DNA of 64,000 nt from Isotricha intestinalis. Its lineage: Eukaryota; Ciliophora; Litostomatea; Vestibuliferida; Isotrichidae. Within the stretch, counting starts at the first letter, position 1, and the number at the start of each line of letters is the position of its first letter. The translations under genes and the position numbers were made by a program. The notes beneath the pieces are model-generated. The model was given only the letters and a program-made list of their open reading frames with translations, ran no database searches and was not told where the DNA came from. Below are positions 37,974 through 60,539 of the stretch, one piece after another. Location: NCBI GenBank assembly GCA_023807065.1, contig JAJJLU010003497.1, positions 1 through 64,000 on the forward strand, read 5' to 3'.

Positions 37974-38120
37974 TCTCTTGAATTAAATATATAAAAATTA
38001 ATTTTTGGGATAATAATTTTTATATCTATAAAAAAATGAAAAATTAAATAACTGTCCAAACAAATATAATTAAAATTAAAAAATAAATAAATAATTAATT
38101 GTTTAATATAAAGCTTTATT
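37974..38120. other. Intergenic DNA beyond repeat copy 2
   Basis: Contains the diverged upstream part of the relic described at 33,689-33,925, and the 3' flank of the following minus-strand gene. Together with the non-coding part of copy 2 (37,460-37,973) it makes a 661-bp gene-free interval. Confidence 0.4.
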
Positions 38121-39325
38121 TTAACCTATAGTAGAATTCATAGAAGCAGTCATCATTGGGGATTTACCACTTAAATTTTTATACATTTCCCGAACATCAT
38201 AATCATCAGCATAAATTTTATCTTCATTAATATCATTAAGAAATTTCTCAAATTCAGGAGCAGTTAATGTTCTACTTTCTTCTAAAGTTTCTAATTGATT
38301 TCTTTTATATAATCTTTTCTTTCCTGGAATCTTTGATTCAAAATGTCTTTCAAAATCACATAAATTTTTTCCTCTGACATATAAATGAGCCATTTCTCCC
38401 ATTTCTTTCACTGTATTTTCACCATATGGAATTAAAGATAAATAAGGATTTCTATCAAATGTTTTTAAATATTTTTTATTTATTAAAGGTTTTCTACATT
38501 TTAAAACAGTTTTTGGGCTTTTTTCAAAAAATCTTCCCCAGAAAGGATTATCATTTGTTCTTATATTTATATAACAATCTCTATGTCCAATAAAATTTTT
38601 TGGTCTTCTTAAATTATAATACCAAGAATTATCTCCTAATTTTAATTCATTTGGAATTTTATCTGATATTGTTCTTAATATTGCATTTTTAAATTGAAAA
38701 GAATCTATATTTGTCATCAATAATTGCTCCCTTGTTTTATGTGTTTTTTTCATTATATAATTTTCCATTGTATGATATCTTTTTTCTGAATCTATATAAT
38801 CTTTTAAATTTTTTTGTTGATTTTTTAATCTGTCTTGAATTAATGTTGGTAGTTGTTTTAAAATTTCTTCATTAGTTTTTATTTTATTTTTTTCTGTTTG
38901 ATTTCTCATATCTAAATATAAATTATGTAACATTTTCCCATCTAAAACATCATAATCAGCTCCTTTCCTTTTTAAAGTTTGTGCTTGAGATTCATAAGTT
39001 CTATGACTTAAATTACCAGATGCAGACATTTTCTTTGATATAATATTTTGAGGTTTTTTAATCATATTACTTCTTTTTATTATATTTGGATCACCGACAT
39101 AAGAATAAGGTACTATTTCATTTTTTTGATTATATCTTGGTCCTTTCGGTTTTCTTCCTACATATATATGAGAGTCTAAACGTAAATAATTGTCTTCATC
39201 ATCAAAAAAATTGTCTATATCTTTAATTATTTCTGTTTTATTATCATGTTGTTTAAGTGAAGTTAATACTAAACTTTTTTTGGGGCAGGTTCATTAAAAA
39301 AATCACGAATCTCTTCGGATTTCAT
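38121..39325 (-). CDS. Conserved-looking hypothetical protein with a frame break at an A7 run
   Basis: The intact part (314 codons from 39,065) begins MIKKPQNIISKK and ends TAA. The frame stays open upstream to about 39,280 (SLVLTSLKQHDNKTEI..., LRLDSHIYVGRKPKGPRYNQ...). A start at 39,325 (MKSEEIRDFFNEPAPKK) runs into a stop just after a coding-strand A7 run (39,275-39,281). One extra base, or a -1 slip on A-AAA-AAA, joins the two into about 401 residues. The sequence is rich in Arg, Tyr and Pro and looks well conserved (PYGENTVKEMGEMAHLYVRG). I cannot name the family. A sequencing or assembly slip is the simplest explanation, since no GT-AG intron fits. Confidence 0.6.
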
Positions 39326-39655
39326 ATTTTTTTATGTAATATTTTTAATTATTTATTAAATCTATCTTCATTTATTCTAAATAAATAATAAAAATAATTA
39401 AAAGAATTATATTTTTAAATTTTTATATTATAAAATTTAATTTACCAAAAATATTATCTAATTATATATAATTATTTATTTAGATGAAAATATTTTAATA
39501 TCGAGATGAACTTTGTTTAAAGGGATTCTTTATTTTTTTCTTTTTCTTTATTTTTTTCTTCATCATTATATAAATTTTTGAATCGAATCCTATTTTTTTA
39601 ATTTTTTTTAACAATTCTTTTTTAAACATTTCTTCATCTTCTTTATTTTTTTTTT

Positions 39656-40440
39656 TTAAACATCAAGATATTTACTGAAAATTTCATTTGAGTCAACTTC
39701 TTCAAATTTCCTAATTTTTTTTCTTTCCTTTAAAAAGCTAAAAAATCCAACATCATAAGAACCAGGGAATTGTCTATCATGTTCACCTTTAACTAAATCA
39801 TCTAACCCATTGAAAATAAATGATAATCCTAAAGTTGCTCCTAAAATACTTTCAGATATTCCCAATCCTTTCAAAACTTTAATATATATGGAAATGCATT
39901 TATAGTTCTTATTCCTAAACCAATTGCTAATCCCATTGATGCAATTCCTATTGTTAAAGCTATTATTATTTTCAATAGGGAAGCTTTTTCAGTAAAGAAA
40001 AAAACATTTTCAAGCCCATTATCACATAAAATATCAAAATATTTTTGATAATAATATGGGATTTCTCTATCCTTTTTTTTTCCATTATTCTCTTTAAATA
40101 TTTTCATATTATTTTCCTCATCAAATATATTTTTCCTTAAATTTTCATTATTATTATTTTTATTAATTTTTTTATTCTGAAAATTATTATTTTGAATTAA
40201 ATTATTTTTTTCAATGCTATTATTATCTTTATTACTTTCTTTATCTTTATCATTTTCAATAGGAAATTTTTTTATTTCATCAGTCCATTGATAATTCATA
40301 ATTAATTCATTAGTTTTTGGAGAACCATAAGCAGTATAAATATCTCCAATATCATAAGCTCTTTTATTATCATTTAAAGAAAAATATATTAATTCATGTG
40401 GTATCCAAAACTCAGAAATTGGAATTAAATAAAGAATCAT
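39656..40440 (-). CDS. Hypothetical membrane protein with a frame break
   Basis: Two frames, 39,871-40,440 (189 codons, starting MILYLIPISEFW) and 39,656-39,874 (72 codons), meet at a TATATAT tract around 39,885, where a one-base change would link NAFPYI to KVLKGLGISES. Alternatively a 44-nt GTTTAG...AAAG intron could be removed, but it does not share the GTA...TAG ends of the other introns. The joined protein has an Asn/Lys-rich middle, a hydrophobic segment (LLKIIIALTIGIASMGLAIG) and possibly a second. After the TAA at the 3' end, a coding-like Lys-rich frame continues behind an A12 run, so the true C-terminus may lie near 39,530. The start codon is only 17 bp from the end of the bacterial block, so the 5' end may be cut off. 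Confidence 0.5.
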
Positions 40441-40457
40441 TTTTGGATTTATTTTAA

Positions 40458-42082
40458 TTATTTAGCTCCTTCATTATCCCTATCTGGATCATAAGCATCA
40501 ATTACAAGATATGAGCTGTTATAATATGTTCTTATTCTTGAATATTTTGGAGAATATTATCAAACAATCTCTCTAAAAAATCATCAAAATCTTCTATATT
40601 TGTATTTTCATAAAAAGATTCATATGTCTTTTCACCATTTTTTTTTAAATGATAAATTTTCATATCAAGATACTCACCATGACTTCTCTCTTGAAATGCT
40701 ATACCAATAGATTTATTTTCAGATCGACCACCATTAATCCATTCGTCAATAGTGTTTTTAAAATTAGCATTAAAATATTTTACTCTTTCATCATTTGAAT
40801 TAAAAAGTGCTTCGTAATCATCATCACTATAGTGCGATAAAATATAATACCCTTGATATATGTTATTATAATTGTATACTTCATTACTTGTGGTAATAGT
40901 TTTTACTCTATCAGTAAATTCATCAGAAGTATCACCTTTCCCTAAACTCACATGATTAATATTTCCATTAATATATCTATAAAATACTCTCAACCTTTTT
41001 GTAGAAGCTGGGTCAATGCAATATACATATACTGTATCTTCAACTATACTTATAGCTTTATCACCATGCACTAAATCACCATATACTACTTTTAAAGTAA
41101 AATCATTATTTATAACTGTATTAGTTGTGATTTCTTCTCCAGTATCATTATTATAAAATTTAAATCTACATTTTATATCTGGTGAATATTCTACATATCA
41201 GTTACATTATTTACATATTTAACATCAATTATTAAACCATCAGGACTAAACTTTTCACCTTTTTCATATTCAGTATTTATAATATGTTTAATAATTGACA
41301 TTTCACTTAATTTGTCATAATTAGCATATATTATCGTTTCATCTTGATTTACATTCCACTTACAATAATCAAAATAATTAGGTAACGAACATGGATTTTC
41401 TGTATAAATATTTTCATCATCCCATTTATAATTATTACGAAAATTAGGATATGAAAATGGATAGATACCTAAGTCTACAACACCATTATATCTTTTATCA
41501 TAATAATGTATGGATTCAACTGCTATATCAGCAATTGTAACATTATCTGAATCATCATTAGTAAAAGTATATAAATCAAAATTACTCATATCTTCTTTAA
41601 AATATACAAAATATAATTTTCTGCCATTAGAGCCATAAGTGTCATTATTTTTTTTATTTATATTTTTAACATTTATATCATCATCTACCAAAATCTCACT
41701 TATTTCTTTTTCTGTTTCTATTTTTTCATCATTAGCTGTTACTTCACTATCATTAGTTTCTTCTTCATATATTTCTGACACTACAACAAATATTTCTTTA
41801 TTAGCTTTTTCTTCTTCATCTGCTGTTTCTTCATAATCAAAATCTTCAGTCAATTTTGATTCTAACTTGACACTATCTTTTGTCATTTTACCAATAATAT
41901 TTTGGTTATCATTAATATTCTCATTAAATTCTGTTAATGACTCATAATTTTTATATTTACTTTCATTCAATTCTATTGTAGTTTGTAGTTTCATAATTAT
42001 TTGAATCAGCAAACAAAACAAATGATTTAGAAGTAATTACTAAACTGATTATCAATAAAACTAATAAAAATTTATGCTTCAT
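40458..42082 (-). pseudogene. Secreted hypothetical protein, frameshifted
   Basis: Starts at 42,082 behind a strong Shine-Dalgarno (GGAGGG, 8 nt spacing) with signal peptide MKHKFLLVLLIISLVITSKS and a likely cut near VLFA. Three frame changes (about 42,000, 41,190 and 40,535) split an original frame of about 541 codons. It can be followed through YVEYSPDIKC, GYYILSHYSDDDYEAL and finally IDAYDPDRDNEGAK before TAA at 40,458. An acidic linker rich in Glu (about residues 50-130) is followed by a beta-rich extracellular part. No family or anchor is recognised. It lies next to the surface-protein/RHS operon, though rplA now separates them. Confidence 0.65.
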
Positions 42083-42172
42083 AAAATTACCCTCCTATTA
42101 CTATACTCTATATATAAATTATACCACAATATATTATATAATACCATAAATAAAAAATACCAAACACAAGAT

Positions 42173-42203
42173 AAAAAAAGCCCGAAGATTCAATAATCTT
42201 AGG
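42173..42203 (-). terminator. Rho-independent terminator after rplA
   Basis: Minus-strand stem CCTAAGATT / AATCTTCGG with loop ATTG (42,182-42,203), followed by a run of T (complement of 42,173-42,179). Confidence 0.75.
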
Positions 42204-42219
42204 ACTTAAATAAATTATA

Positions 42220-42805
42220 TTATTCAGTTACTAGTTTCATAGTATTTACTGCAACTCCAGGACTCATATTTGATGCAAGAGTTACACTTTTCAAAAATGT
42301 TCTTTTTAAACTTTGTGGTCTTGCTTTTTCAATTGCTCCCATAAGTGCATTAAAGTTTTCTTTCAATTTATCTTTTCTAAAAGATGCTTTACCTATTGGA
42401 CAATATATAATATTTGATTTATCAAGTCTATATTCTACTTTATCAGCTTTAAATTCATCTATAGTTTTCTTTATATCCATAGTAACTGTACCAGTTTTTG
42501 GATTTGGCATAAGTCCTTTTATACCAAGAATTTTAGCCAAACGACCAACATTTCCCATCATATCAGGAATAGCTATAAATGAGTCAAAATCTAACCAACC
42601 TTCATTTTGAATTTATTTACTTAATCATCAGCACCTACATATTCTGCTCCAGCAGCTTTTGCTTCATCTGCTTTTGCATCTTTAGCAAACACTAAGATTT
42701 TAACTTGCTTTCCTGTTCCAGCTTTAATATAACTGAACCTCTTATTTGTTGTTCTGCATATTTAGAATCACAACCAATTCTAACATGAAGTTCTATTGTT
42801 TCGTA
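42220..42805 (-). pseudogene. rplA: 50S ribosomal protein L1 fragment
   Basis: Reads [20 protein letters not shown], then [17 protein letters not shown], and from 42,561 an intact run containing [22 protein letters not shown] and the C-terminal [12 protein letters not shown], all typical of L1. A TTA-to-TAA stop after GADD and single-base losses break the frame. The first about 30 residues are missing: the coding sequence begins abruptly after an RHS-repeat gene at about 42,805. In bacteria rplA precedes rplJ-rplL, which here lie 16 kb away, so the region is rearranged. Confidence 0.85.
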
Positions 42806-44974
42806 AATTTACTTAAAGTTTTGAGTAGTTTCTCTTCTATCAATCTTTTTAATAACATTGCCTCTGTAATCATATGTATAAAGTTCGTCTTTACCATTAC
42901 ATCAATCTTCTTAGTAAGATTATGTAGGACATCATACTCATAGTTTACTTGTCTTCCAAGTATATCAGTTGTTTTTAATATGTCATCTCCTAATGAATAT
43001 ATAAGGTTAATTCTATAATTCATTGAGTCTATGGTGCTTGTAAATCGTTTTGCTCTGACATAATTATACTTATAAATCCTGCCATCTTTTTGTATCTTTT
43101 TAGTTACTTGTTTATTGAGATTGGTTTCATATCTTTCAGTATTGTTAAGATCATCTATCATTGATATAACACTATATTTATCATATGTGTAAGTTGTAAC
43201 TTCGTTACTTTAGGTTGTTTTCTTAATTATGTTGCCGTAACGATCATACTCATAATTAATGAAGTGGTTTTCACCATCTATTTCTTGAGTTAATCTACTC
43301 TCTTTATCATACTCAAATTTATTTGTTATGTTCTCAGCTGTTTTTATCTCTACTACATTGTTATTTCTATCGTATTTAATATTTATAGCATTATTTCTAC
43401 TATCAGTTTTTTTAATTTCACAATTTAACTCATCATATATATATGTTATAGTATTATCTTCTTCATCCTTAACCTCGAGTTGTCCTGGAGTTAAATCATT
43501 CTCATATGGCTCAGCTGTTATTGGATCTCTTATAAATAACACATCACCTTCATAACACATAAGTCTACTAAAATGATTGTCTAATCCTATATCATTTGCT
43601 TCAACTCCATAATGCATAGCAATCTTTTCAAGGACATCACCATCCTGAACTTTGTAAAATAAAAATGTGCTACTATCAATAGTTCTAACCATATACCTGT
43701 ACTATCAGTTGTATCATAAACCTTAGCCCCTGTATGTTTTTCTTTTATTGGTTATGGAGGTGGTTGCTAATTATCACCAATATCTAAATCTTGAGTTGTA
43801 TAACTTGCACACCCTGATGCCTTTTCAGTGGTGTTATAATTTGTATTAAATTTAAGTGGTGAACTTACACTAAAAAGGCTGCTTTGCACCTTATAAACTT
43901 TTGATTCAGTAAACGTTGAACCGAAACTACTATAATTAGGATATGCAATAGCCCCTGGAATACAAGTTTGTGTGTTTACAAATACATCATTTCCTTCTTC
44001 ATCTTCTTTATATACATCAAATTTAACTTGATGTCTATCAGTATGTGTACAGACTGCCTGTAAAAAGGAATCAGGATTGGACTGAAATGAAGTTTGCATA
44101 ATCCCACATACTAAAAGACCAGAACAAGTTTGACCACCACTCCTACTTTTCTTCGTCACTGCTCTAAGAACAAAATCGCTGCTACTTTCTGGCATTGTAA
44201 ATAATTTTTGTCCACCACTATAGCCAAACAAGCCATTACTAAAATTATTTAATTCCCAACTATTTATTACCGCAATTTCTGATTCTATAGCAATATCTAA
44301 TTCAATACCATAATTCTCTTCACTTATTTCTGATGGTGTAGATTTTCAAATTCTATGTCAGTTATTTCATCTTCTATTTCTGATTTAGTTGCAATGTCCG
44401 TATTCCCCTCACTTTAATTGGTAGTTGTTTCTACATAATTCTCTTGCTCCTCCCCATCCTCACCACTCTCTTCTGCATCAGAACCCGTAGCGATATTCTC
44501 ACTTTTCTCATCTTCTATATTTTCATTAGTTAATATTTTATTGTTTATGATTGTTGTAGTTTCTTCTTTTCCTACTGTTTCATTAGTTTCAGGTTCATCT
44601 TGCTAAGAACTCTCTATTAACTTATCAGTTTCTGGCTCTTCTGCATTCTCATTTGTAGTAATATCTTCTTCAATTCCACTAATATATATACTTTCATCAT
44701 TACTTGAAGAACTTTGTTGCTCACTATTCTCAACACTCGTTCTCTCAGTATTTTTATTAATTATATTATCTTTATTTTCATCAGAAGTGAGAATTGAGAG
44801 ATGTTCCTCTCTATAAGAACTTTCTCTCTCTTTATATTCCATATCTTCTATCGCATTAATCATATAAATAATAGAAAGTTTAAAATCTCGTACATTACAA
44901 ACAGAGCAAATATTTGTTATAAGCATTGAAGTAATTATATAAAGTATAATCTTTCTTATTATTCTTTTTATCAT
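42806..44974 (-). pseudogene. Secreted RHS/YD-repeat protein, truncated
   Basis: Starts near 44,974 (MIKRIIRKIILYIITSMLI, a signal peptide) with AGGTGA upstream, about 10 nt after the stop of the surface-protein gene, so the two form an operon. Order: signal; acidic Ser/Glu linker; a DNRLRE-like beta domain (SGGQTCSGLLVCGIMQTSF); a LysM-like module (FYKVQDGDVLEKIAMHYGV); then RHS/YD repeats (NAINIKYDRNNNVVEI, FINYEYDRYGNIIKKT, LYTYDYRGNVIKKID). Several stops (for example SS-TAG-QDE) and frameshifts occur. The C-terminus is lost: coding stops at ETTQNFK, where rplA begins. No toxin domain is present in what remains. Confidence 0.75.
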
Positions 44975-44983
44975 ATCTGTCAC

Positions 44984-47557
44984 CTATCTACAACTTCTTT
45001 TTTGAACTTGAGCGTTATTGCACCACCTTCAAAAAGCATCTACTCTATATCCATCTCTTGTTGCTGAATCGGTTGCAAAAGCTCCTTAATTTTCTGTACT
45101 TGTATCAAAATAATAACAAAAGTACCCACTATCATGTGATGGAAGCCAATTCCAGCCGACCAGCTTCTTACCTTCATCACCTATATTTAATATTCCATCA
45201 TTAAAACAATAAATTCTACCATCAACAGCATAATATCCTACTTGCATTTGCCATTCTCAACAAATCTATACCAATCTGCATTTTGTACCATTGGATTACT
45301 TGATACATCAATTAATGCCCATCAATTTTTATAATCATGTCCACTACTATCAATAAATGACCATTTATTCACTAGACTAAAACCAGTTGCCTTTTACTGC
45401 GACAGTATTCATAGTGTTTGGAATATTTAAATTAGCATTTGTATTTGTAGTGGCCTTTAATGTATTTAACATATTAGAGATTGTGGTTCCAGCAGGTATA
45501 TAAGCACCTCCACTGCCATGACTTCCATCGCCTCCATCTCCGCCACCACTGCCTCCGCCGCCTCCTCTTGGTGCAGGATTTGGTATACTTTGTCCCCATA
45601 AAGCATATAAAGTATTGCTACCAACTAAATACTCATTTGTATCAAATTTATTTTGAAAGTTTGGGTCATTAAACCATCCTTGAAATACAAAGTTATTTTT
45701 ACTTGGATTTGTTGGAAGACTTAGTATGTTCCCTTCTTCTACATTTATATTTGAAAGTATTGTGCCACCATTTGTATTAAAACTTAGTATATATGATGTT
45801 TTATTAATACTTGCACTTCTTATAAGACTTATGTAGCTATTTACTATCCTTCCTTCTGCATCTGTTATATAATCTCCCGCGTCATCAAGCAATATAAAGC
45901 TCACTACATTTCTACTATTCTCTTCATCAAGAAGTTTTGAACCATCTATCCTAATTTGGTACTTGCCATTTGTTAATGTATATAGTCCTCTATTGTTGTT
46001 TGTTACAAGTTTCTCTCCATTAAGATATACTTGAACTGATTTGGCTCTTCTTTCAGTCGTATTTATGTTTAATTCAGCATATGTATTATAGGAAAGCATT
46101 CCACCTGCTCTTAGTTTATTTTCTTCATTTACATTATCAGCTCTAAAGCTTCCTGTAATTGTTATACTATTGGTTTTATCATATGGTTGAACTGTCATAG
46201 TACTTGTATTATCATTTAGTAAATCATCTTCTGTTTTATAAATATCATCTAACACTACAAGTCTTTCTGATACATTTCCATATGCTCTCTCAGTTAAATA
46301 TTGTTCATAATATCCTTCACTATATTCACTAAAATATGTGCTCTGCTCTATGCTTTCACAAAGATTCCAATATTTCTCTCCTGTTTTTATTAAGAAATAT
46401 GGGAAATTAACCCATTGCTTTGCATATGATTCTTTATTTTTGCCTGTCAAATTGTCATTGTTTACTACCCATGTAGGTTTAAATGAAAGTTGCTCTCCAC
46501 TTGGGCTCTTATAATAATATTCTGATACTATATTATAAGTTCTCTCCATTATTCTCTTGTTTACATAAAATGATACTGCTCTATCAATTTCAGTTGTATT
46601 TGGGTCATAATAATAATATTCTCCCAATACTCCTTCATAACAACTTAAGTAACAGAGAACTCCATATTCAAATAAATCGTATTTCCCTAAATCAGTATTG
46701 TTAAATTCAACATTAACTTCTATATGGTCAAGTCTATTTATTCCTTGTGGATTAAGATAACCATTGCCACTATATCTCACAACTATATCTTCTATAAAGC
46801 CATCTGGTAGCAACACATAGTTATCATTACTGTTGTCAAAATCAAAAAAATGCACATTGTTTGCAAGATTTACGAGTATGGGGCTATTATTATTGCTATC
46901 AGCCATATCTCTTATTACTTTTACATTTGTATTTCCATTATGTTCAGAAATACTTACTTTCCCTGCATTCTCACCTTTGTATATCTCATATCTATCATAA
47001 GTTGAATGAATGGCTACTGATGGCGAAGCAGTTGATGGGTGATTTCCTGCAACAAAAAGCATATCTCTGTATATTTTATTCTCTACAAATATCTCATTTA
47101 TTTCATTATTACTGATAACTACTTTTTCAATTGCACTTTCTAAAATGCTTGTGTTTATATCAGTCTCCAGTTCACTGCTTCCAATAATTTCATTAATTTT
47201 ATCAAGTGCATCTTTCTCATAATCATTAATATGTAGCCCTTTTCTTGTTTCTTCAATAAAATCATACGACCTACTTGATTCTACTTCTCTCTCTTCTTCA
47301 GGCTCATTGTATTCTTCTTTTTCAAACATTTCTTAGGAGGATATTTCAATGTATTCATCATTGTTAGATTCATTAAAATCATAAACTTCTGTGGTTGATT
47401 CTATAATTTCATCATCCATTTTTTCTTGATTTAAAGTCGTGCTTTCTGCAAAACTTTCATTTGTTGTAAAGTCTTCTGCAAATGATACAATTACTAAACT
47501 ATTAATTATAAAAAGCAATACTACAACTAACATAATTCGTTTACGAGTTTTACTCAT
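44984..47557 (-). pseudogene. Large secreted surface protein (InlB repeat, cell-wall-binding C-terminus)
   Basis: Start at 47,557 behind GGAGG (8 nt). Signal peptide: basic SKTRKRIM, then LVVVLLFIINSLVIVSFA. About 855 residues were encoded, broken by one in-frame TAA (47,333) and frameshifts near 45,390 and 45,250. The 650-codon core is intact. It holds a beta-rich extracellular region, one InlB/Flg_new repeat (ILSFNTNGGTI...FVFQGWFNDPNF...TLYALWG) and a Gly-rich linker. The tail has aromatic repeats (KWSFIDSSGHDYKN, NGKMQVGYYAVDGRIYCF) like choline- or cell-wall-binding repeats. It is likely held non-covalently on the wall. It lies immediately downstream of an invertible segment that should switch its expression. 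Confidence 0.75.
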
Positions 47558-47648
47558 TTCTTTATTCCTCCATTTCACTTATTTTTTTATAAATACAAAA
47601 TTATATATTTCATATATAAATCAAAACTGACCATATACTTCTTGGTTT

Positions 47649-47669
47649 CATCATAAGATTCGTTGTGGT
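47649..47669 (+). repeat. Left inverted repeat of invertible segment
   Basis: 21 bp, beginning CATCATAAGATTCGTTGTGG. Perfect reverse complement of 47,950-47,970. Matching stops on both sides of the repeat. Confidence 0.95.
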
Positions 47670-47949
47670 GCAAAAATTAAATACTTTAAATAATATGTTT
47701 TTTATGCAAAAAAGATAGTTTTACTTATTTTTTTATAAATGAAATTTTATTTTGATATAATAATAATAGATAATTTGTATCTAAATTATTTTCATTTCAC
47801 AAAAAACAAGTCAAATTATGATTTTTTTTAATTTGACTTTACAGATTTAAGTTTTTATGAAATTTTATAAAGTTTTCTTCAAATTTCTATTGATTTTTTA
47901 TCTAATTTAATTTAAAATTCTAATCAATCAAAAATTCATTAAAGATATA
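47670..47949. promoter_or_regulatory. 280-bp invertible control segment
   Basis: Lies between perfect inverted repeats, between a tyrosine recombinase gene and the surface-protein operon. On the plus strand it has an extended -10 promoter TGATATAAT (47,753-47,761), which in this orientation points away from the operon. Its minus strand carries an intrinsic terminator that would stop read-through from the recombinase towards the operon. Inversion would turn the promoter towards the operon and remove the terminator from that strand. I read the present state as OFF. Confidence 0.7.
47801..47839 (-). terminator. Rho-independent terminator inside the invertible segment
   Basis: Perfect 11-bp stem AAGTCAAATTA / TAATTTGACTT (47,808-47,818 and 47,829-47,839), followed on the minus strand by GTTTTTTG. 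Confidence 0.8.
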
Positions 47950-48831
47950 ACCACAACGAATCTTATGATGGCTATTTTTATTTTTAGATTAATAGCTGTT
48001 ATGCTATTAGCAGCATTAGATAGTGTATCTCGTAAATATATTCTTGTAGATTCAATACTACGATGACCAAGTGTTTCTGATAATTTACTAAGTGCAACAC
48101 TACTATATCTTTTTAGATAATTTACTGCAAAACTATGTCTAAAGCTATGTGGATGTGCTTTAGTCAATTCTATCCCTATTTCTTCCGCAAGTTTCCTTAT
48201 ATTTCTACTAATAGTTGACCTATCTAGATATACCATTAGTTTTGCAATAATTGATTAATTTGTTTCTCAAATTAGTAGGTAGTGGAACTTTTCGTAATGT
48301 TCCTTTATTGTAAACACATATAAACTTTCTATTTAGTGACTCTACAGTTACAAATTTAACTTCTGATACTCTTAAACTCTTCTGTGATAATATTTTCAAA
48401 ATGAAATATAATAAAATGTTCACTTTCTTGCTTTCATTAATCATTCTCTCGATCTCATCATTTTCAAATATTTTATTATCATCAATAAAAGTCTTCCTTT
48501 GACATTATAATGTTTTAGCCTTAAGGTTATTCAAATGATGATATTCTAATAATTGATTTATCCCCGCAATTTTGTTATTTATAGTTTCAGTAGTGTATTT
48601 TCTACCTATCTCAAACTCATAATCTTTTAAACACTCAATAAAATCCCTGATATTCCGTTTTGTTAAATTATTAACATCAGCAATCTTAGTGATACCCACA
48701 AAATCTACTAATGATTTTGCTGACCTACAATAATCATCAATAGTATTTTCAGCACTATCTCTCTCCCATAAATAATTCCTAAAATCATTGACTACTACAT
48801 TTCTATAGTCTTTTTCGTGATACTTTACCAT
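47928..48831 (-). pseudogene. Tyrosine recombinase (XerC/D-like DNA invertase)
   Basis: Start at 48,831 behind AGGAGG (MVKYHEKDYRN...). The N-terminal SAM-like domain includes FRNYLWERDSAENTIDDYCR. The catalytic set is complete: Arg in LRVSEV, HSFRHSF (H-x-x-R), LGHRS and the nucleophile Tyr in TRIYLRDTL. One TAA (about 48,508, KTL-stop-CQRKTF) and a shift near 48,230 break the frame. The last about 14 codons overlap the right inverted repeat (AIIRFVVV), so inversion would alter the protein's C-terminus, as in known DNA-invertase switches. It is about 300 residues, normal for the family. It probably flips the adjacent segment. Confidence 0.85.
47950..47970 (-). repeat. Right inverted repeat of invertible segment
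   Basis: 21 bp, perfect inverse of 47,649-47,669. It lies inside the 3' end of the recombinase coding sequence. Confidence 0.95.
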
Positions 48832-48864
48832 AATAAATTCCTCCTTAATTTTTTTACTACAATA

Positions 48865-48897
48865 CAAGAAAAAAAATAAGAAGTGTTGCCACTTCTT
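48865..48897 (-). terminator. Rho-independent terminator upstream of recombinase
   Basis: Minus-strand stem AAGAAGTG / CACTTCTT, loop GCAA (48,878-48,897), followed by ATTTTTTTTC. It insulates the recombinase from upstream transcription. From here to about 49,225 I see no gene. Confidence 0.75.
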
Positions 48898-49224
48898 ACA
48901 ATAATATAGATATATCTTGAATTTTTGTAGTTCTAATTAAAGAGGTCTCAAACCTTATTTATGCCATCTGCTATCTTAATATCAAAATTTTGTAAAAGAG
49001 GCATTTATATCCATCATATTCATTTTTCGTTCCTTTCATATTTGCATTATATCACAATTATTTAATTCATTATAATATATTTTTGTTTATAGATAAAGTA
49101 AAAAATTATTCTGATTTTTTATTAAAAAAATCATACTTTTTGTATTAGTTTTATATTTATAATATCCCTTGAAAATAGAATCTTTTACGAATTTGTTCAG
49201 TTAGTTCTACATTTATTATATCAT

Positions 49225-50014
49225 AATATTTTCCAAATAACTTCTAATTTGGCAATGTTTTGAATCATCTATTTTATCTAGTCCAAATTTAATTTAAAAT
49301 CTATTCTGTTTCTTTGATTATCTATTAATGTTCTTATATTTCCACCATTAAGCTTATATGCTCTTAATTTAGACATTTTATCATCATTTTTGTTTGTTCC
49401 ATCCCATAGGTCTACATTTGTTCTGCAAGTATATGTGATACATGACCTTCAGCAGAACAACTTATTATATTTTCATTGTTATTGATTCAAAATTATTACT
49501 TAAATATGTCCATTGATCATATTCCCACCTTTCTTCTACTTCTCTTTTTACATAGGTTTCATTATATTAAATGATATATCAAACTATCTCTGTCATTATT
49601 TTTAAAATTTGTTATTAATTCTTCTATAGCTTCACCTAATATTATTCTTCTTACACCATCTGCCATTCTTTCTTCTGATTCTATTGATAAATATTTATCT
49701 ATTAAATACAAATATTCATTATTTTTTGTATCATAATATCTAGTTTTTATAAAATCAACTTCTCCAAGCTCACATAAAAGCCTTTTTTTAACCTTATCAT
49801 CAATTTTAAATCTATTTACTCGTCCTTCAATCTTTTTGATATCATTATCAAGCAATTCTAAGTTGTTCTTTAATATCATTAAGCTAATCTTTTGAATATC
49901 AATATATACTTCTGTAGATGAGTTATGAATTGATTTTCCTTCTGATAAATTTCTTAAATTTTTTATTGAAATCTCTTGCAAAATATCTACTGTTTGTTTT
50001 ATAATACCTTCCAT
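49225..50014 (-). pseudogene. ISLre2-family (UPF0236) transposase remnant
   Basis: Starts at 50,014 behind AAGGAGATA. The N-terminal part is typical of ISLre2/UPF0236 transposases: KKRLLCELGEVDFIKTRYYD and EYLYLIDKYLSIESEERMAD. After about 150 residues it passes straight into the family's C-terminal block: ENIISCSAEGHVSHILAEQM, then MSKLRAYKLNGGNIRTLID, ending near SKHCQIRSYLEN. The central catalytic part of about 200-250 residues is missing, and stops and shifts occur in the C-terminal part. It is therefore an internally deleted, non-autonomous copy. Inverted repeats and target duplications could not be made out. Confidence 0.7.
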
Positions 50015-50128
50015 AAGGGAGTATCTCCTTGTTTTTTTTTCTTTCAAAACTATTATATAAGAAATACTCCTTTTTTCATACCTTTTTTTTATAAAATCCG
50101 ATTCTAATTATACACTATAAAGCAAATA

Positions 50129-50154
50129 AATAGAGTCCATATATGAACTCTATT
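50129..50154 (-). terminator. Terminator after clpX
   Basis: Stem AATAGAGT / ACTCTATT around a 10-nt loop just beyond the clpX stop. The following T-run is short (TATTT). Confidence 0.5.
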
Positions 50155-50160
50155 TTTAAA

Positions 50161-51475
50161 TTATGCTACACCTGCAAAATTTTTATTTTTATATTTGATT
50201 TTCATTTTTTTGTCTTCTAAATCTCGCTGTTTTAAATTGTTAGTGTTTTCAAATATTGGTTTTGATTTACCAAGAACAGGTTCTTTAGTGATTATTACTT
50301 TTTTGATGTTTTCATCAATTGGAACTTCATACATAATATCAAGCATAGTATTTTCAACTATATACCTGAGTCCTCTCGCCCCTAATTTTTTATCATTTGC
50401 AATTTTAGCTATCTCATCTAAAGCTTCATCAGTAAACTCAAGTTTAACACTATCCATTTCCATAATTTTCTTAAATTGACTTACTAATGAATTTTTTGGT
50501 TCTACTAAAATCTTTTTTAAAGTCTGTTTGTCAAGTGATTTTAGAGTTGATACTACTGGAAGCCTATCTACAAACTCTTGTATCAAACCATAATTTATCA
50601 AATCCTCAGTATCACATTTGTATATAATCTCATCATACAATAAATTCTTTTTATCTTTTATAGTAGCAATAAAATCAATTGATGATGAATCTATCCTTTT
50701 TTTGATTATGCTCTCAGTCCATCAAAAGCACCACCACAGATAAACAATATATTTTTTGTATTCACTTGTATATACTGTTGCAGCGGATGCTTTCTACCAC
50801 CAAGAGGTGGAACATTTACTACTGTTCCTTCAAGTAGTTTGAGTAATGCTTGCTGCACTCCTTCACCTGATACATCACGATTTATACTTACATTTTGATT
50901 TTTCTTAGTTATCTTGTCTATCTCATCTATATATATAATACCAGTTTCTGCTTTTTCTACATTTCCACCAGCTGCTATTATCAATTTTAAAATGATATTT
51001 TCTACATCTTCTCCAACATAACCTGCTTCAGTAAGTGTAGTAGCATCTGCTATAACAAATGGAACAAAGAGAAATCTCGTTAAACTTTCAGCAAGATAAG
51101 TCTTGCCAGAACCTGTAGGTCCTATAAAAAGTAAGTTTGATTTTTGTAATTCAACATCACTTTTTTCATTGTTATGCAGCCTTTTACAATGATTATATAC
51201 TGCGAAAGAAATAGTTTTTTTAGCTGCATCTTGACCTATAATATATTCATCAAGATAAAATTTTAATCTTTTGGCTTAAATGATTTTGAATTTATCGCAT
51301 ATTCTGAATTAAAATCAGTTATATGGTCATCTTCAAGTATCTCATTGTAATTTTTTATACAAGCATCACATATGAAAATATCGCCTACAAAACCTTCTAT
51401 CAATTTATGAATTTTATCTGCTGGCTTGACAGAAAAATTACAATGTGGCATATTTTTCTTTTCTACATTAGACAT
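50161..51475 (-). pseudogene. clpX: ATP-dependent Clp protease ATPase subunit ClpX
   Basis: About 438 codons from 51,475. The Walker A motif [13 protein letters not shown] lies near 51,110. The region 50,984-50,706 is intact and has [10 protein letters not shown] (Walker B), [20 protein letters not shown] and GGRKHPLQQ. The C-terminal domain follows (FVDRLPVVSTLKSL, KKLGARGLRYIVENTMLD). In the N-terminal zinc domain the first C-x-x-C pair reads CNFS, so one Cys is lost, while CDACI is kept. Frameshifts lie near 51,270, 50,700 and 50,645. ClpX unfolds substrates for ClpP; gene order tig-clpP-clpX matches Firmicutes. Confidence 0.9.
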
Positions 51476-51492
51476 TTTAACCTCAGTTATTA

Positions 51493-52102
51493 TTAATCTT
51501 TTTCTATAACTTTATCAAATATACCATAATCCATAGCTTCTTTTGCTGTCATCCAATTATCTCTCTCTGTGTCAAGAGCTACTTTCTCATAACTTTGCCC
51601 TGTATTCTCTGATAACATTTCATTTAATTTCTTTTTAGTTTTTAAAATTTGATCTGCTTCTATCTGTATCTCTGTAGCTTGACCTTGAGCACCACCACTT
51701 GGTTGGTGAATCATTATCTCTACATTTTGAAGGCAAATCTTTTTCCTTTTTGACCACCAGCAAGTAAAAAAGCACTCATAAATGCTGCCATACCTATATA
51801 TATAGTTGAAACATCACATTTAATATATTTCATAGTGTCATATATTGCCATACCAGCAGTTACTGAACCATCCGGTGAATTTATATACAACATTATATCT
51901 TTATTTGGGTCTTCTGCTTCTAAAAATAAATCTGTGATACTATGAGACTTGCCAAACCATCACTTACTTGGTCAGGTAAAAATATAATTCTCTCTTCAAG
52001 TAATCTTGAAAATATATCATATGTTCTCTCATCATGACCTGATTGTTTTACTACATAAGGTGTAGTGCCTATTGATTTTATCTCATTTTTTATATTAGTC
52101 AT
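51493..52102 (-). pseudogene. clpP: ClpP protease subunit, catalytic Ser replaced
   Basis: Start at 52,102 ([12 protein letters not shown]), 9 nt from AGGAG; the nearby in-frame ATG at 52,108 is too close to the Shine-Dalgarno. Recognisable blocks: [18 protein letters not shown], then the nucleophile region [17 protein letters not shown], the His block [16 protein letters not shown], and [17 protein letters not shown]. In the family the nucleophile block is GMAASMGA. Here the Ser codon is TTT (Phe), a single C-to-T change, so even an intact frame would be inactive. Frameshifts lie near 51,925 and 51,720. The length of about 203 codons is normal. Confidence 0.9.
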
Positions 52103-52114
52103 AATCATAATCTC

Positions 52115-53397
52115 CTAATCTTTTAAATTTGCATTTTCATATATAAAATCCATCACAGTAGCGAAAAGCAAATCTTTTTTGATATTCTCTCTCTCTTCAT
52201 CAGTTATATATGTCTCTTTAAATTTGTGGAGTGAACATACTATAAGCTGTTGCCATATTTTTTATTTTTTCTTCTACTTTTTCATCACTTGCTGATATAT
52301 TTTCAAGTCTATTTATCTCTTCAAGAACTAAACTTGATTTTAAATTTGCTATAGCTTGTGGTTTTTGTGCTTCTCTAAACCGCTCATAATTTTGATTAGT
52401 CATTTTTAGATAATCATCAAAACTTATTCTTTGATAATAAAGTCTATTTTCTAAATTTTTCTTTATATCATCAATTGATGCTTCTATATCTTCGTCAGCA
52501 AGATTTATATCAGTCGCTGTAACTATTTTTTCAAGAAGTTTTTGTTTGTCAGCTTGAACTGCTTTTTTTGAACCTTCTTCTAATAATTTTTTCTTTAAAT
52601 CTGCTTTGTAATCGTCTAATTTATCAAACTCAGAAATCTCTGATACAAACTCATCATTAATCTCTGGTAGTTCTTTTACTTTAACTTCTTTTATTTTTAC
52701 TTTAAATAATGCTTGTTTTCCTGCGAGTGACTCTCACCATAATCAGAAGGGAAAGTAACATTAATATCTACTTCTTCATCTATTTTATGACTGATAAGTT
52801 GGTCTTCAAAAGTATCTATAAAACTATGGCTTCCTATAGTTAGTGGATAATCTGTTCCTTTTCCACCTTTGAATCTACACCTTCTATATAACCTTCAAAA
52901 TCAATAGTAACTACATCATCTTTAGCAGTAGCTCTATCTACACTTACCATACGAGCATTTTTATCTTGCTCTATTATCAATTTTGCTTTTATATCATCTT
53001 CTGTTCAACTAACTTTTGTTTTTGTCAAATCTACACCTTTATATTTTTCTACTTTAAATTCAGGAACAAATGTAGTTGTGTAAACTAAATCTTTATCACT
53101 TCCTACTTCCAATAATTCTATTTCTAGTCTTGATAATATTTTTGAGTCAGCTTCTTTTATAGCATCATAATAAGTATTGTTGATACTTTCATTCGCAGCA
53201 TCTTCATACAAAACACTCCTGCCATAAATTTTAAATACCATCTCTTTAGCTACATGACCTTTTCTAAATCCAGGAAGTCTAAATTTTGATTTGTTTTTTT
53301 CAAATGCTTTATCTTCAGCTTTTAAAAAATCAGCATTATCTACAGTTATAGTTAGTTTTTCTTTATTATTGTTTATAGATTGTTTTGAAACTTTCAC
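52115..53397 (-). pseudogene. tig: Trigger factor chaperone
   Basis: GTG start at 53,397 behind GAGGA (KVSKQSINNNKEKLTITVDN). The ribosome-binding loop FRLPGFRKGHVAKEMV is typical of the signature G-F-R-x-G-K-x-P. A stop at about 53,005 (KVS-stop-TEDDIK) and several one-base losses follow, but the PPIase domain can be read ([19 protein letters not shown]). The C-terminal domain continues to TAG at 52,115, which overlaps the clpP ribosome-binding site. About 427 codons, a normal length. It assists folding at the ribosome exit. Confidence 0.9.
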
Positions 53398-53418
53398 TTA
53401 TGTTCCTCAGTAAAAAAA

Positions 53419-54344
53419 TTATTTTATTATTTTTGTTCTGCTCTCACCTTTTATAGCAGCGCTTGTTTTTTCAAGACTCGCTACGATAGCTTCACCGCCG
53501 CCGTTTACAAAATTTACACAAGCTTTAACTTTCGGAAGCATTGAGCCTGCAGGAAATTGACCATCATCACAATATTTTTCTGCTTCTGCTATAGTCATAA
53601 CTTCCAAATTTTTCTGGTCAGGTTTTCCAAAATTAATAGCTACTCTGACAACATCAGTAAGTAATATAAATGAATCTGCTTTTTTAAGTTCAGCAAGTTT
53701 TGCAGAAGCAAAATCTTTATCAATAACAGCTGGTGTGCCTACGATTTACCAGATTTATTTATAACTGGTATACCACCACCACCTACTGTTATAATTATAT
53801 TTCCACTATCTACTAAAGTATTGACTGTATCTTTTTCTACTACATCAACTGGTTTTGGACTTGGAACAACTTGACTGTATCCTCTACCTGAATTTCTACC
53901 ATAGTATATCCTTTTTCTTTTGATATCCCACCAACAGTTTCTTTATCGTAAAAAGCACCTATTGGCTTTGTAGGTTTTTGAATGCTTCATCATTTTCATC
54001 TACTAATACTTGTGTAACTAGAGTAGCTACATTTTTCTTAATGCCCCTTTTATTTAATTCATTTCCAATACTGTTTTGTAAATAATAACCTATATAACCT
54101 TGACTTATTGCTCCAAATTCTGGAAATGGCATATCAGCTTTTATAACTTTTGCTTCTGCTGCAGTTGACATTCCAAGATTAATCATTCCTACTTGTGGTC
54201 CATTACCATGTTCTATCACTACTTGATTACCTGCTTTTATAAGGTCAACTATAGGTTTAGCTGTTTTTTCTACTAATTCAAGTTGTTCATAAGCTGTATT
54301 TCCAAGTGCATACCACCAAGTGCTATTAAAATTTCCTTACCCAT
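53419..54344 (-). pseudogene. arcC: Carbamate kinase
   Basis: Start at 54,344 behind GGAGG ([11 protein letters not shown], the conserved N-terminal phosphate loop). Then [32 protein letters not shown], a Gly-rich ITVGGGGIPVINKSG, and the C-terminal FPAGSMLPKVKACVNFV. Each is a family landmark. Frameshifts occur near 54,320, 53,960, 53,880, 53,745 and 53,610. About 308 codons, the usual size. The enzyme makes ATP from carbamoyl phosphate in arginine or purine fermentation. The neighbours are not the usual arcABD set, so its pathway here is not clear. Confidence 0.9.
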
Positions 54345-54371
54345 TTTATTCCTCCAAAACTAATTATTATA

Positions 54372-54941
54372 TTAAGAAAAATAAGAATTAAATATATAAA
54401 TTCTTCTTATATATCTATCCATATAATCATTTAATACTGAAACTTCCATAGTTATATTTTCATGTGGATTAAAATATATAGTTTCAATAACTAAATCAAC
54501 AAATCTATTGCTTATAGTTCTTGATCAGTTTCCGTTTCTATATATATTTATCACATAATCAGCTTCGTCAGTAATATAATCACCGGTTATATCAAATGTT
54601 AAATGTGAATTATCACCACTATTAAAACTAAATCTTGCAACTTGTTCTGTAAGCCCTATAGCATAAAGATAACTTGTGCTACCAGCTATGAAAGTAGTTA
54701 TAATAGCATTGTATTGATTAAATATTCTTGAAGCAAGGTTACCAGTTAAAATTTGGTCAATATTTGTAGAATAACTTTCAGGACTTGTGCTTGATATATC
54801 TAAATATGAAGGTGTAACTAATTCATAATCATATTTTGCGATTGCTTTAGTTTGAATTACACCATTTACTACTAATCTACCTGCTGTATCTACAAATTAT
54901 CCATCTGGTATAGCAGTATTTGTATGTATAGATATAGCCAT
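54372..54941 (-). pseudogene. Hypothetical protein fragment, beta-rich
   Basis: A frame from 54,941 (MAISIHTNTAIPDG) to TAA at 54,372 of about 190 codons, broken by TAA after PDG and TGA after YRNGN. The sequence is Ser/Thr/Tyr-rich with alternating hydrophobics (GNLASRIFNQYNAIITTFIA, SGDNSHLTFDITGDYITDEA), resembling phage- or surface-type beta proteins. There is no signal peptide. The family is not recognised. Confidence 0.5.
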
Positions 54942-55023
54942 ATTGGTTAAAATAATAACAATTTGCAATGAGATAAATTAATTTAATTTATAAAAATAAA
55001 AATTGTATTAAAGGAGAAAAAAA

Positions 55024-55196
55024 ATAAAACATTTATCAAAAATCTTAATAGTATTAATATTTATATTATTTTTTTCAATGAATTGTTTTGCAAGAAGTTT
55101 AATAAATGATGGTATAGGTATTAGATTGATGTAGGTGGTGGCAGATATTTAGAGAGTAGTTGGGCTTGGGCTGATGCATCAGGCCTCGGTGCCTAA
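55024..55196 (+). pseudogene. N-terminal fragment of a secreted protein
   Basis: One of the few plus-strand bacterial pieces. AAAGGAG precedes an ATA codon where ATG is expected. Then comes a signal peptide (KHLSKILIVLIFILFFSMNC) and, after one frame change, DVGGGRYLESSWAWADASG and a stop. It ends tail-to-tail and overlapping with the vanY-like gene, so a breakpoint or deletion is likely here. Confidence 0.45.
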
Positions 55197-55911
55197 AAAA
55201 TATTCTTCTAAAGTCAAATTATTAGACATAATATATTTTGCTGCCTCTACACCTACATATCTAAAATGCCAAGGCTCGTATATTATACCTGTTATATTAG
55301 TTTTATCTTTTGGATATCTAAGTATAAATCCATAATCAGCACAATGTTTCAACATCCATTTATATCCATCAGTCTCTTCTTACTTATTATCAAGATTTTT
55401 ATAAGACATATCTATTATATCCATACATAATCCTGTCTGGTGCTCACTTGTTCCTGGAAACGGTTGATTTTTATAGCTTCCATAAATGCAACCATTTCTT
55501 TTTTCCCTTTTGACAAATTATTTTGTAATTTTTTATTGAATAAATAACCTTGTCTGTCAGAACTTCTATATCCAAAAACTACATATAGTGATATTTTATC
55601 AGCTTTAGAATCAAGTAATATTTTTTCTACTATAGGTGCAACTTCAGCATGCATTTTTTGACCACGTGTGATATCAGTTAGAGGTGGCACATAATTTAAC
55701 TCTATAGGATGAGAATAATTAGAAGTTTTAAAAATTTATCCTTCACTTTAACTTCTTCTTTTTTAATAGTAGTTAAAGGACCAGCCGTTGATATAAATAA
55801 TGCATCAGTAGCTGAACTTATTATAACAGAAGTTTCTAATGTTTTTTTATTTAATATCAAAATAAATAAGAATATAATATATAGTTTATTAATTAGTTTT
55901 TTTAGTCTCAT
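55179..55911 (-). pseudogene. D-alanyl-D-alanine carboxypeptidase (VanY family)
   Basis: Start at 55,911 (MRLKKLINKLYIIFLFILIL, signal anchor). The peptidase part has a KADKISLYVVFGYRSSDRQ segment, then, after a frameshift near 55,420, GTSEHQTGLCMDI (zinc ligands His and Asp of SxHxxGxAxD) and EPWHFRYVG (catalytic Glu and zinc His). All the metal and catalytic residues are readable across frames. Further shifts are at about 55,700 and 55,380. About 240 codons. It would trim peptidoglycan stem peptides outside the cell. Confidence 0.85.
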
Positions 55912-55965
55912 AATATCCCATTTTATTGTTTTATATTATAATTTTATAAATATATTTAAATCAAG

Positions 55966-55999
55966 CAAAAAATCCCCTTGAAAATTTAGGGGATTTTTA
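55966..55999. terminator. Bidirectional intrinsic terminator
   Basis: Stem AATCCCC / GGGGATT with an 11-nt loop, flanked by A-run and T-run on both strands, between the vanY-like gene and the repeat array. Confidence 0.7.
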
Positions 56000-56008
56000 T
56001 ATAAAAGG

Positions 56009-56192
56009 GCTCCGCAAGCGTTCGCCAGTACATTTGGGTTGCAAGCCTCTGCCCTTACAAACTTAGATTCAAGCATTTGCCCGTCCAAACTTATTTTCAA
56101 GCATTTACCCGTTCAATTTAGATTCAAGCATTTATTTTTACAAAATTAGGGTCAAATGTTCGCCCGTACATTTGGGTTACAAACATTTGCCT
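56009..56192. repeat. Degenerate tandem array, unit about 28 bp
   Basis: About six to seven units of the form TTCAAGCATTTGCCCGTACA followed by about 8 AT-rich bases (for example starting near 56,071, 56,098 and 56,123, with more diverged units on either side). There are no unique spacers, so it is not CRISPR. It lies between the terminator and the permease 3' end. Confidence 0.65.
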
Positions 56193-56205
56193 TAAAAATT
56201 CATAA

Positions 56206-57546
56206 TTATACTATACTTTTTCGTTTTTTATGCAACAATATATTAAGTACTATAGCTACTATAAATACAACTGCAACAACATTGTTTTGGAATATATCTT
56301 TTATAAGTTGTGGAGAAAATTGGAATATAGTATTTGAATCTGTAGCAGTAAATCCACTACCGATACAAAGTGCTAAAGCAGCTATAGTAAAGTTTCTATC
56401 ATTAAATCCTGCTCTATGTCTCATTTGCATACCAGAAACAAGGATTTGACCAAACATCATTATAGTACATCCACCAAGAAGTGGTTGTGGTATAGTTTGG
56501 TAGAAACCAGCAAGTGGAGGTAAAAATTCAGCTATTATAAGTATAACTGCAGCAGTACCAACTGTGAATTTATTTACAACTTTAGTCATAGCACAAAAGT
56601 CCAACATTTTGTGAGAAATTTGTTAAAGGTGAACATCCAAAAAGTCCAGCTATAGATGAAGCAACACCATCACAAGCAAGTGAAACAGATGTCTCTTCTG
56701 AAGTGATATCTCTATCAAGTCCACCTTGGCAAAGTGCTGCAGAGTCACAGATAGTTTCTGTAGCAGATACAAGGAATATAACTGTCATAGAAATAATAGC
56801 ACTTAATTCTCTTGGCATACCTGTTGGTAATGGTTGAGGAACAGCTACTTCACCTCTTGCCATTATTTCGCTAAAGTCAACCATACCAAATGGTATAGAT
56901 ACTATATAACCAACTATAAGACCAACAAGTGCTGATAATGCTTTGATAGGTCCTTTACATGCATATGACCATACTAAACAAGTGATAAATGTAATTGAAT
57001 CTATTATCCAATATTTTGGAGCACCAAAATCAGGTAGATAAGTTCCACCACCACCAAATGAATTAGTTCCTACTGTGAATAGTGATAAACAGATACCACA
57101 AACAACACAAGCAGATACTATTGGTGAAAGGATACCTTTCCAGTATTTGTAAGTAAGACCAAGCACACCTTCAATATAACCACCAACTATTACAGACGCA
57201 TAGTGATATTGTAATCTTTGCCAACTGTAGTCATCATAGCTGCAAGGAATGTGAAACTGATACTCATTATGATAGGAAGTCTACTACCAATTTTCCAAAT
57301 ACCAGCTATCTGAATAAGCCAAGCTATACCAGCGATAAACATACAGTTTTGAATAAGAATAGATACTGTATGAGAGTCCATTGGTGAACCATTAACTTGA
57401 GCAACTCCAATAACTAAAATGATAGGAGTTACTTTTGACACAAACATTGCTAAAATGTGTTGTAGAATGAAAGGAATAGCAACACCAAGAGGAATGCTAC
57501 AGTTTAGTTTGTAGACATTCTCAATTGAAGAATTTCCATTTCCCAT
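56206..57546 (-). pseudogene. NCS2-family purine (xanthine/uracil-type) permease
   Basis: Start chosen at 57,546 (MGNGNSSIENVYKLN). About 447 codons with roughly twelve to fourteen hydrophobic segments. Family landmarks: GVAIPFILQHILAMFV near the N-terminus, LIQNCMFIAGIAWLIQ, VSATETICDSAALC, the signature NFSQNVGLL, and GCTIMMFGQILVSGMQM in the C-terminal part. Two frameshifts (about 57,190 and 56,590) separate three long intact parts. A proton symporter for purine bases, most like xanthine permeases. Confidence 0.9.
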
Positions 57547-57671
57547 ACTTCTTATGTGCAATTTTTCACAAGAATTGCACTTTCCTCCTTAAAGTTTTGT
57601 TATTTTAATTATATAAAATTTTAATTTTTTCTAAAGAGTTTTTTTGCAAAAATTTTAAGAAAAATGTTTTA

Positions 57672-57704
57672 GATAAAAAAAATCAGGCAAATTAGCCTGA
57701 TTTT
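57672..57704 (-). terminator. Rho-independent terminator after rplL
   Basis: Minus-strand stem AAAATCAGGC / GCCTGATTTT with loop TAATTT, followed by T-run. Confidence 0.85.
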
Positions 57705-57729
57705 ACTATAATAACAATATATATTCTTA

Positions 57730-58108: not shown

Positions 58109-58148
58109 TTTAATTTTCTCCTTTTATAAATGAATATTTTTTTTTAAA

Positions 58149-58638: not shown

Positions 58639-58684
58639 TTTTCCTCCTTGTCGAATTTATTATTTTACCTGACAGAGTTTTTAT

Positions 58685-60529: not shown

Positions 60530-60539
60530 TTCGTGCTCC

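Follow-up and report, generated by a model that had tools for sequence, protein, structure and literature searches.

Introduction

The fim switch of E. coli, whose recombinases FimB and FimE are tyrosine recombinases, offers a close point of comparison for the locus described here. Its invertible element, fimS, is described as measuring 296 bp without its repeats and as containing only a promoter (PMC5903667), with FimE encoded immediately 5' of this promoter-bearing segment (PMC5386303). A different mode of action is reported for C. difficile, where the cwpV switch is described as having no promoter activity and as working through a terminator, the cwpV and flagellar switches both acting after initiation (PMC5386303); in the flagellar switch, arms of 21 bp enclose 154 bp (PMC5386303, PMC5903667). 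Among gut invertons, a group of 33, of which 32 come from Clostridia, is linked to one tyrosine-recombinase group, and cell-surface products are reported near invertons (PMC11892184). Gut bacteria are thus already known to carry invertons that are linked to recombinases and lie close to genes for surface products (PMC11892184, PMC5903667). Ciliates, too, are known to have received genes from rumen bacteria, and bacteria of the rumen, Firmicutes included, are named as likely donors to rumen protists (PMC1413528).

The locus reported here lies in a window of 64,000 bases (bases 1-64000 of the 70,010-bp contig C933) within a protist assembly of 57,315,732 bases in 2153 contigs. Like fimS, it combines a putative promoter in a segment of about 300 bp with inverted repeats, a recombinase gene alongside and a surface-structure operon as the target; unlike fimS, with its FimE and FimB, it has a single recombinase gene at the locus, its target encodes InlB- and RHS-repeat proteins, it derives from Lachnospiraceae, and the copy in the window is dead. 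The arm sequence of fimS is expected to differ from that of the arms found here. With the RecV switches of C. difficile the locus shares a tyrosine recombinase, cell-surface targets and a place in the Clostridia, but RecV serves several sites with unlike arms, whereas here the arm family tracks the neighbouring recombinase group. The gut invertons of Clostridia are of the same general kind, and the genus concerned here consists of uncultured rumen Lachnospiraceae. In contrast to the ciliate genes of PMC1413528, described there as expressed and host-like in codon usage, the window carries a block of about 22.8 kb with many broken genes. Among the literature matches listed, judged by titles and abstract openings, none concerned this switch and none concerned decayed bacterial blocks in rumen protists. 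Our reading of the sequence is that the window probably holds a fossil bacterial phase switch, which came from a rumen Lachnospiraceae, decayed in the protist genome and is frozen in the OFF state.

Results

A bacterial block within a eukaryotic contig

Host DNA stands on both sides of the bacterial block within one contig (Table 1). The left flank has a GC content mostly of 15-23%, rising to 28% near 19-21 kb, and the protist open reading frames (ORFs) of the contig reach 903 aa. Three cNMP stretches were scored in the cGMP-dependent-type kinase of this flank, which matches four solved PKG sequences, presumably apicomplexan, over nearly its full length, the best solved matches spanning residues 79-866 of 903. 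A PDB search with two unassigned flank proteins gave no match. The host is probably a rumen ciliate, to judge from the habitat of the donor, the GC content and the PKG type; no 18S sequence was recovered, and PF00297 had no match. The left junction is placed by composition and by a single homologue of ORF 41191-42021, and the right end cuts znuA, the match beginning at residue 54 of the protein at a bacterial locus, L008. Just outside the insert at the left junction, the overlapping protist ORFs 39656-39874 and 39871-40440 appear to belong to a single gene that is interrupted either by an intron or by a shift of frame.

The block carries bacterial genes, of which the main ones lie on the minus strand: L1, RHS, InlB, the recombinase, ClpX, ClpP, trigger factor, a gene of carbamate-kinase type (named from sequence reading and the AA_kinase match of a related stretch, L035), a permease, L7/L12, the L10 leader, iron hydrogenase, a NuoF-type protein and ZnuA. 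The InlB-repeat protein is 52-75% identical to 15 proteins drawn from 24 matches, two of the 24 being named as Lachnospiraceae MAG proteins, and a scan of reference genomes found five loci. Each of the five is in a record titled as a Lachnospiraceae MAG, and two come from the reticulum of goat and water deer. Positions 44000-63300 of the window match all 12 genomes of the genus, with 64-81% identity among the matches listed above 500 bp. In other genomes of the genus the pieces of the block are spread over different contigs or are widely separated, which could reflect either a patchwork of bacterial pieces or a donor with another gene order; the latter is preferred because the main bacterial ORFs share one strand. 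In the window, 16 kb separate the L1 half from the L10 leader. L1 and L10 genes are neighbours in many bacteria. In genome G002 (L077) the frame upstream of an L10-type gene is, by eye, not L1-like either, and the separation may be the genus's own gene order.

Table 1. Positions of the features in the window
Feature	Position	Strand	Remarks
Eukaryotic left flank	1..40440	.	PKG-type kinase, EF-hand/PH/kinase protein, PP2C
Bacterial (Lachnospiraceae) block, ~22.8 kb	40450..63260	.	ends approximate; 23-34% GC
Ribosomal protein L1, C-terminal half only	42220..42561	-	PF00687 profile positions 99-198 of 198
LysM/RHS-repeat protein remnants	42793..44983	-	fragments; the relative's protein has 2745 aa, most of which is missing here
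Broken InlB-repeat surface protein	45377..47578	-	in-frame stop near N-terminus
Left arm of inverted repeat (operon side)	47649..47669	+	core CATAAGATTCGTTGTG identical to arm at G010:C195:3009-3024
280-bp invertible segment	47670..47949	.	orientation as in L010, L013, L025; opposite to L023
Extended -10 of the sequence-only reading, TGATATAAT	47753..47761	+	present; no conserved element aligned there
Terminator-like hairpin followed by GTTTTTTG	47808..47839	-	faces operon; -8.1 kcal/mol; T-run
Promoter-like TTGATT-N17-TAAAAT	47890..47918	+	faces recombinase, away from InlB/RHS operon; position kept in relatives
Right arm of inverted repeat (recombinase side)	47950..47970	-	
Broken tyrosine recombinase	47971..48833	-	pieces in ORFs 48505-48867, 48220-48444, 47928-48236
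clpX, clpP, tig in pieces	50161..53397	-	
rplL and following-strand L10 gene remnant	57669..58786	-	rplL profile positions 1-57 of 67 matched
L10 leader RNA	58675..58786		
Broken iron-hydrogenase/NuoF-type block	58820..62350	-	used for decay test
Eukaryotic right flank	63270..64000	.	AT-rich; AIG1 and MORN genes continue in L002 to contig end 70010

We asked whether a contaminating bacterial genome could have supplied the block, a possibility rejected on the finding that PF10385, the RpoB domain of bacterial type, matches the assembly only once, in a broken fragment with an internal stop on contig C1319. The search of the 57.3-Mb assembly thus yielded no intact rpoB of bacterial type; its two PF00562 matches are open over 1211 and 1197 aa and carry no PF10385 match. 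The block is therefore probably not from a contaminant genome. The fragment on C1319 (566-6606; L036, L039) contains trigger-factor, RpoB and L10 pieces, is about 70% identical in places to the window's block and adjoins an ORF that is eukaryotic in look by eye. On contig C315 (L035), a broken amino-acid-kinase (carbamate-kinase-like) gene sits between MORN-repeat and XPG-type protist genes. These other broken bacterial fragments in the same assembly suggest that passive capture may recur.

Inverted repeats and a broken recombinase

The defining feature of the locus is a pair of arms of 21 nt each, 100% complementary and spaced by 280 nt, which confirms, at identical coordinates, the perfect repeats that an earlier sequence-only reading had described. 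When the bacterial block was simulated 200 times with a first-order Markov model, no 21-bp inverted pair at a separation of 60-1000 bp arose, and an 18-bp pair arose in one of the 200 runs; the arms are real and exceed chance expectation. The only other inverted pair of at least 21 bp within 1 kb in the window is a perfect, AT-only hairpin at 63788-63809, in the protist right flank just past the insert. The 401-bp switch region is single-copy in its own assembly. That the arms are still perfect despite the decay described below can be a matter of luck, as a hand estimate gives a perfect pair about 1 chance in 7 of surviving a few percent divergence.

The recombinase gene with R-H-R-H-Y residues that the sequence-only reading had placed immediately to the right is indeed there, with the R..H-R..H..Y residues distributed across its pieces, but it is not intact: set against its counterpart L046, with about 75% amino acid identity over both pieces, it contains a single in-frame stop and has lost about 11 residues in a deletion that changes the frame, leaving three ORF pieces. 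In addition, the Gly of the closest relative's MGLRVSE is replaced by Ser beside the first catalytic Arg. The frames of the recombinase beside the segment are open in relatives and broken in the window. At the DNA level the region is 78% identical to G010:C195. The closest NCBIfam models are XerA, XerC and XerD, all below their cut-offs, and the closest PDB match is XerD at 49.8 bits.

The right arm had also been read as lying inside the 3' end of the recombinase gene. This holds for the window, where it comes about through one extra base beside the arm, whereas the stop precedes the arm in seven of the nine relatives compared (by 1-3 bp in L010, L023, L013 and L025) and falls within its first bases in the other two (L046 and L028). 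Given these positions, inversion would leave the C-terminus of the recombinase unchanged, contrary to the proposal that it would be altered.

Bacterial relatives carry the segment in both orientations

Matches to the recombinase of L006, a bacterial locus with the same gene order, were found in seven of the 12 genus genomes (25 rows in total) and in none of the other five. Inverted pairs were sought in 22 of the 25 rows (those other than L022, L033 and L034), and arms of at least 17 bp were present in 14 of the 22; thirteen pairs span 319-339 bp and one, in L011, spans 145 bp. Among the nine full-length rows of at least 41% identity, a count that omits the partial rows L017 and L032 (44-45%), seven have an inverted pair starting no more than 15 bp from the end of the recombinase match, while L024 and L031 show one arm before the contig ends. 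The arm pattern CAYAAGWTYYGTTRTG occurs at 16 sites in four of the 12 genomes, with none for the reversed control, and the arm beside the G010:C195 recombinase, an enzyme about 75% identical to the two pieces in the window, carries the window's core letter for letter. Four arm-bearing G010 contigs (C83, C84, C175 and C195) start or end at an arm or within 255 bp of one, as we infer would be expected if both orientations were mixed in the sample.

Evidence for inversion comes from L010 (G002) and L023 (G008), in which the recombinases are 97% identical and the segments stand in opposite orientations (reverse score 364, forward score 24). Fourteen segment pairs score at least 60; the five that include L023 match only when reversed, and the nine without it match forward. 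The window's segment aligns forward with L010 (score 55, reached by none of 500 shuffles, against 28 in reverse) and, with weaker support, with L013 (p 0.012) and L025 (p 0.028), and it matches L023 when reversed (p 0.002). Its alignments with L027 (p 0.89) and L028 (p 0.33, forward and reverse scores both 36) are not significant. The two orientations are thus seen in relatives of the window, L010 and L023, and not in the window itself. Together with the arms present in relatives, they support the site-specific inversion proposed from the sequence, for which the absence of the opposite orientation or of conserved repeats in close relatives had been named as a refutation. The switches are native to a genus of rumen and reticulum Lachnospiraceae.

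Two further observations concern the same genus. A second switch family (L016, L018, L019, L026, L029 and L032) has near-palindromic arms like GACATAATAAAAATTATGTCC, and its recombinase matches are 37-45% identical to the first family. A lone exact arm match at G002:C65:17267-17282 has no exact partner or listed recombinase on its contig and could be an orphan that is recombined in trans.

A promoter-like element at a conserved position in the segment

All seven aligned segments (six relatives and the window) contain the motif TTGNNN-N17-TAAAAT near one arm and on one strand only. It stands near the recombinase-side arm, except in L023, where it is near the operon-side arm, and its distance, taken from a reference point that lies 6 bp beyond the arm, is 57-60 bp in six of the seven segments and 45 bp in L013. 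In 2000 simulations for each segment, a motif turned up at 45-60 bp with a chance of 0 to 0.0025 and anywhere in the segment with a chance of 0.011 to 0.033. In the L010 orientation the motif is directed into the recombinase gene and in the L023 orientation towards the operon, the first frame of which opens within about 15 bp of the arm. If the motif is an active promoter, then the L010 orientation would be OFF and the L023 orientation ON. The window's motif points away from the InlB/RHS operon, and its switch is accordingly read as most likely OFF.

The sequence-only reading had also called the window OFF, on the strength of an extended -10 and a minus-strand terminator facing the operon. The OFF state itself is retained, although the supporting elements fared differently. 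The string TGATATAAT is present on the plus strand, but since the conserved motif stands elsewhere it is rejected as a functional promoter and remains a sequence fact only. The terminator-like hairpin with its T-run is likewise present, yet an operon-facing, T-tailed hairpin passing our hairpin filter was recovered at the matching place in just one of the six relatives.

These observations bear on whether the switch could instead be of the terminator type, as in cwpV, with the promoter outside the segment and inversion making or removing an operon-facing terminator. Such a mechanism would be compatible with a fossil origin and could draw on the window's T-tailed hairpin and on a central GAGATT...AATCTC hairpin seen by eye in the alignment of the relatives' segments. 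We nevertheless regard it as distinctly unlikely, as the element conserved in position is the promoter-like motif and the operon-facing hairpin has a single counterpart. Membership of the RecV/cwpV group was rejected on sequence grounds. The earlier likening to cwpV is not borne out either, in that cwpV is reported to lack promoter activity (PMC5386303) while the present segment contains a promoter-like element and adjoins the recombinase gene, as in fim. As far as sequence can tell, the mechanism would be promoter inversion of the fim kind and not the terminator mechanism of cwpV.

The putative target operon and its variable neighbours

The InlB-repeat gene of the window continues beyond 45377 as a shifted stretch with more in-frame stops in the C-terminal part. 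In L006 the order is recombinase, arms, InlB-like fragment, InlB and finally a frame of 2436 aa that is still open where the contig stops and is 64% identical to the RHS protein of L007, where InlB is followed by an RHS protein of 2745 aa. The InlB-RHS order claimed from the window is therefore found in two bacterial relatives. InlB adjoins the switch in two of the five loci found (L005/L057 and L006). L007 has, by eye, just a short recombinase-like ORF, no recombinase was seen upstream in L008, and the contig of L009 is too short to show one; the genomes of L007 and L008 contain no match to the L006 recombinase.

The switch neighbours vary among genomes. In L043, L044, L048 and L050 the downstream neighbour is another protein with a signal-like start, by eye, and no Pfam family was found for the two that were tested. 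In L048 (G002:C17) and L050 (G005:C24) the switch stands upstream of a secreted-looking protein followed by small membrane proteins that resemble, by eye, a conjugation or type IV secretion operon; if so, this would be a phase-variable transfer apparatus.

Probable decay of the block

Broken genes in the block include those for the recombinase, InlB, RHS, ClpX and hydrogenase, among others. In the hydrogenase block, each of three relatives has two long frames (579-615 aa), while the longest stop-free stretch in the window is 110 aa. To assess decay we compared each of four genomes (window, G002, G006 and G004) with the other three over the hydrogenase coding span, a test of one block of about 3.5 kb in one alignment. 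Indels not divisible by three numbered 14 in the window and zero in each of the relatives. At codon positions 1 and 2, window-specific changes comprised 79 GC>AT and 30 AT>GC, against 83 and 117, respectively, for the three relatives pooled (Fisher p 2.3e-7). The excess at position 2 relative to position 3 in the window had p values of 7e-4 (three pooled), 0.005 (G002) and 5e-6 (G006) and was not significant against G004 (p 0.36). These figures supersede an earlier comparison that used unequal sets and non-coding columns (17 of 20 non-triplet indels in the window, 11 of 16 in relatives; 79:32 against 156:170). The drift is towards AT, which is easier to explain by neutral decay in an AT-rich genome than by errors in the reads.

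Two readings would keep the switch alive. The first, that this is a working phase-variation switch of a living bacterium, was the view taken from the sequence alone; it agrees with the perfect arms and the promoter-like element as well as with the residues of the recombinase and the order of the genes. The locus does not, however, sit in a functional bacterial setting: the recombinase, InlB, RHS, L1, clpX, clpP and hydrogenase genes are broken or truncated within the same 23 kb, and eukaryotic DNA flanks the block on both sides, making this reading highly improbable. The main rival is an assembly or amplification chimera, in which DNA of a rumen bacterium with a live switch was misjoined and low-coverage errors mimic broken genes. 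A source bacterium of the rumen could share the protist sample, and nine of the 14 frame-breaking indels are single-base (eight deletions, one insertion). A chimera would nonetheless require two independent joins and would have to account not for indels alone but also for in-frame stops and for changes at codon positions 1-2 that run preferentially from GC to AT. Protist ORFs of up to 903 aa on the same contig, the broken state of the only bacterial-type rpoB domain in 57 Mb and two more contigs with broken bacterial genes also speak against it, and we consider a chimera unlikely.

Discussion

The evidence favours a fossil switch, for which the following course of events can be proposed. The source would be an uncultured rumen Lachnospiraceae with an invertible-promoter switch, in which a XerA/XerD-like tyrosine recombinase encoded at the segment edge would recombine arms built on CAYAAG-N4-GTTRTG and so flip about 320 bp; that the recombinase acts on its neighbouring segment is our inference from the arrangement of the loci. 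A promoter near the recombinase-side arm would read into the recombinase gene in the OFF state, and after inversion, in the ON state, it would drive an operon encoding a LysM/RHS protein together with a secreted wall protein that has InlB repeats. About 22.8 kb of donor chromosome would then have joined the protist genome and decayed, breaking the recombinase and the operon and leaving the switch stuck in the OFF orientation. As to how this came about, we lean towards the protist having taken in some 23 kb of the chromosome of a food or companion bacterium, which has no selected function and is decaying, with such capture recurring and the switch recording the OFF state of one cell at the moment of capture.

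The kind of switch is already known; what was less expected is to meet such a decayed block in a protist. On the bacterial side, the finding adds a recombinase-linked family of putative promoter switches from uncultured Lachnospiraceae of the rumen. Copies exist in nature both ways round, and they lie beside an InlB-repeat and RHS operon and other secreted proteins. The locus also advises caution, as an element that looks bacterial in a stretch of DNA could turn out to be a fossil. If the junctions hold, the block would show what gene transfer from eaten bacteria starts from, namely large, unselected and decaying pieces of chromosome, of a kind that is usually inferred just from a few surviving genes.
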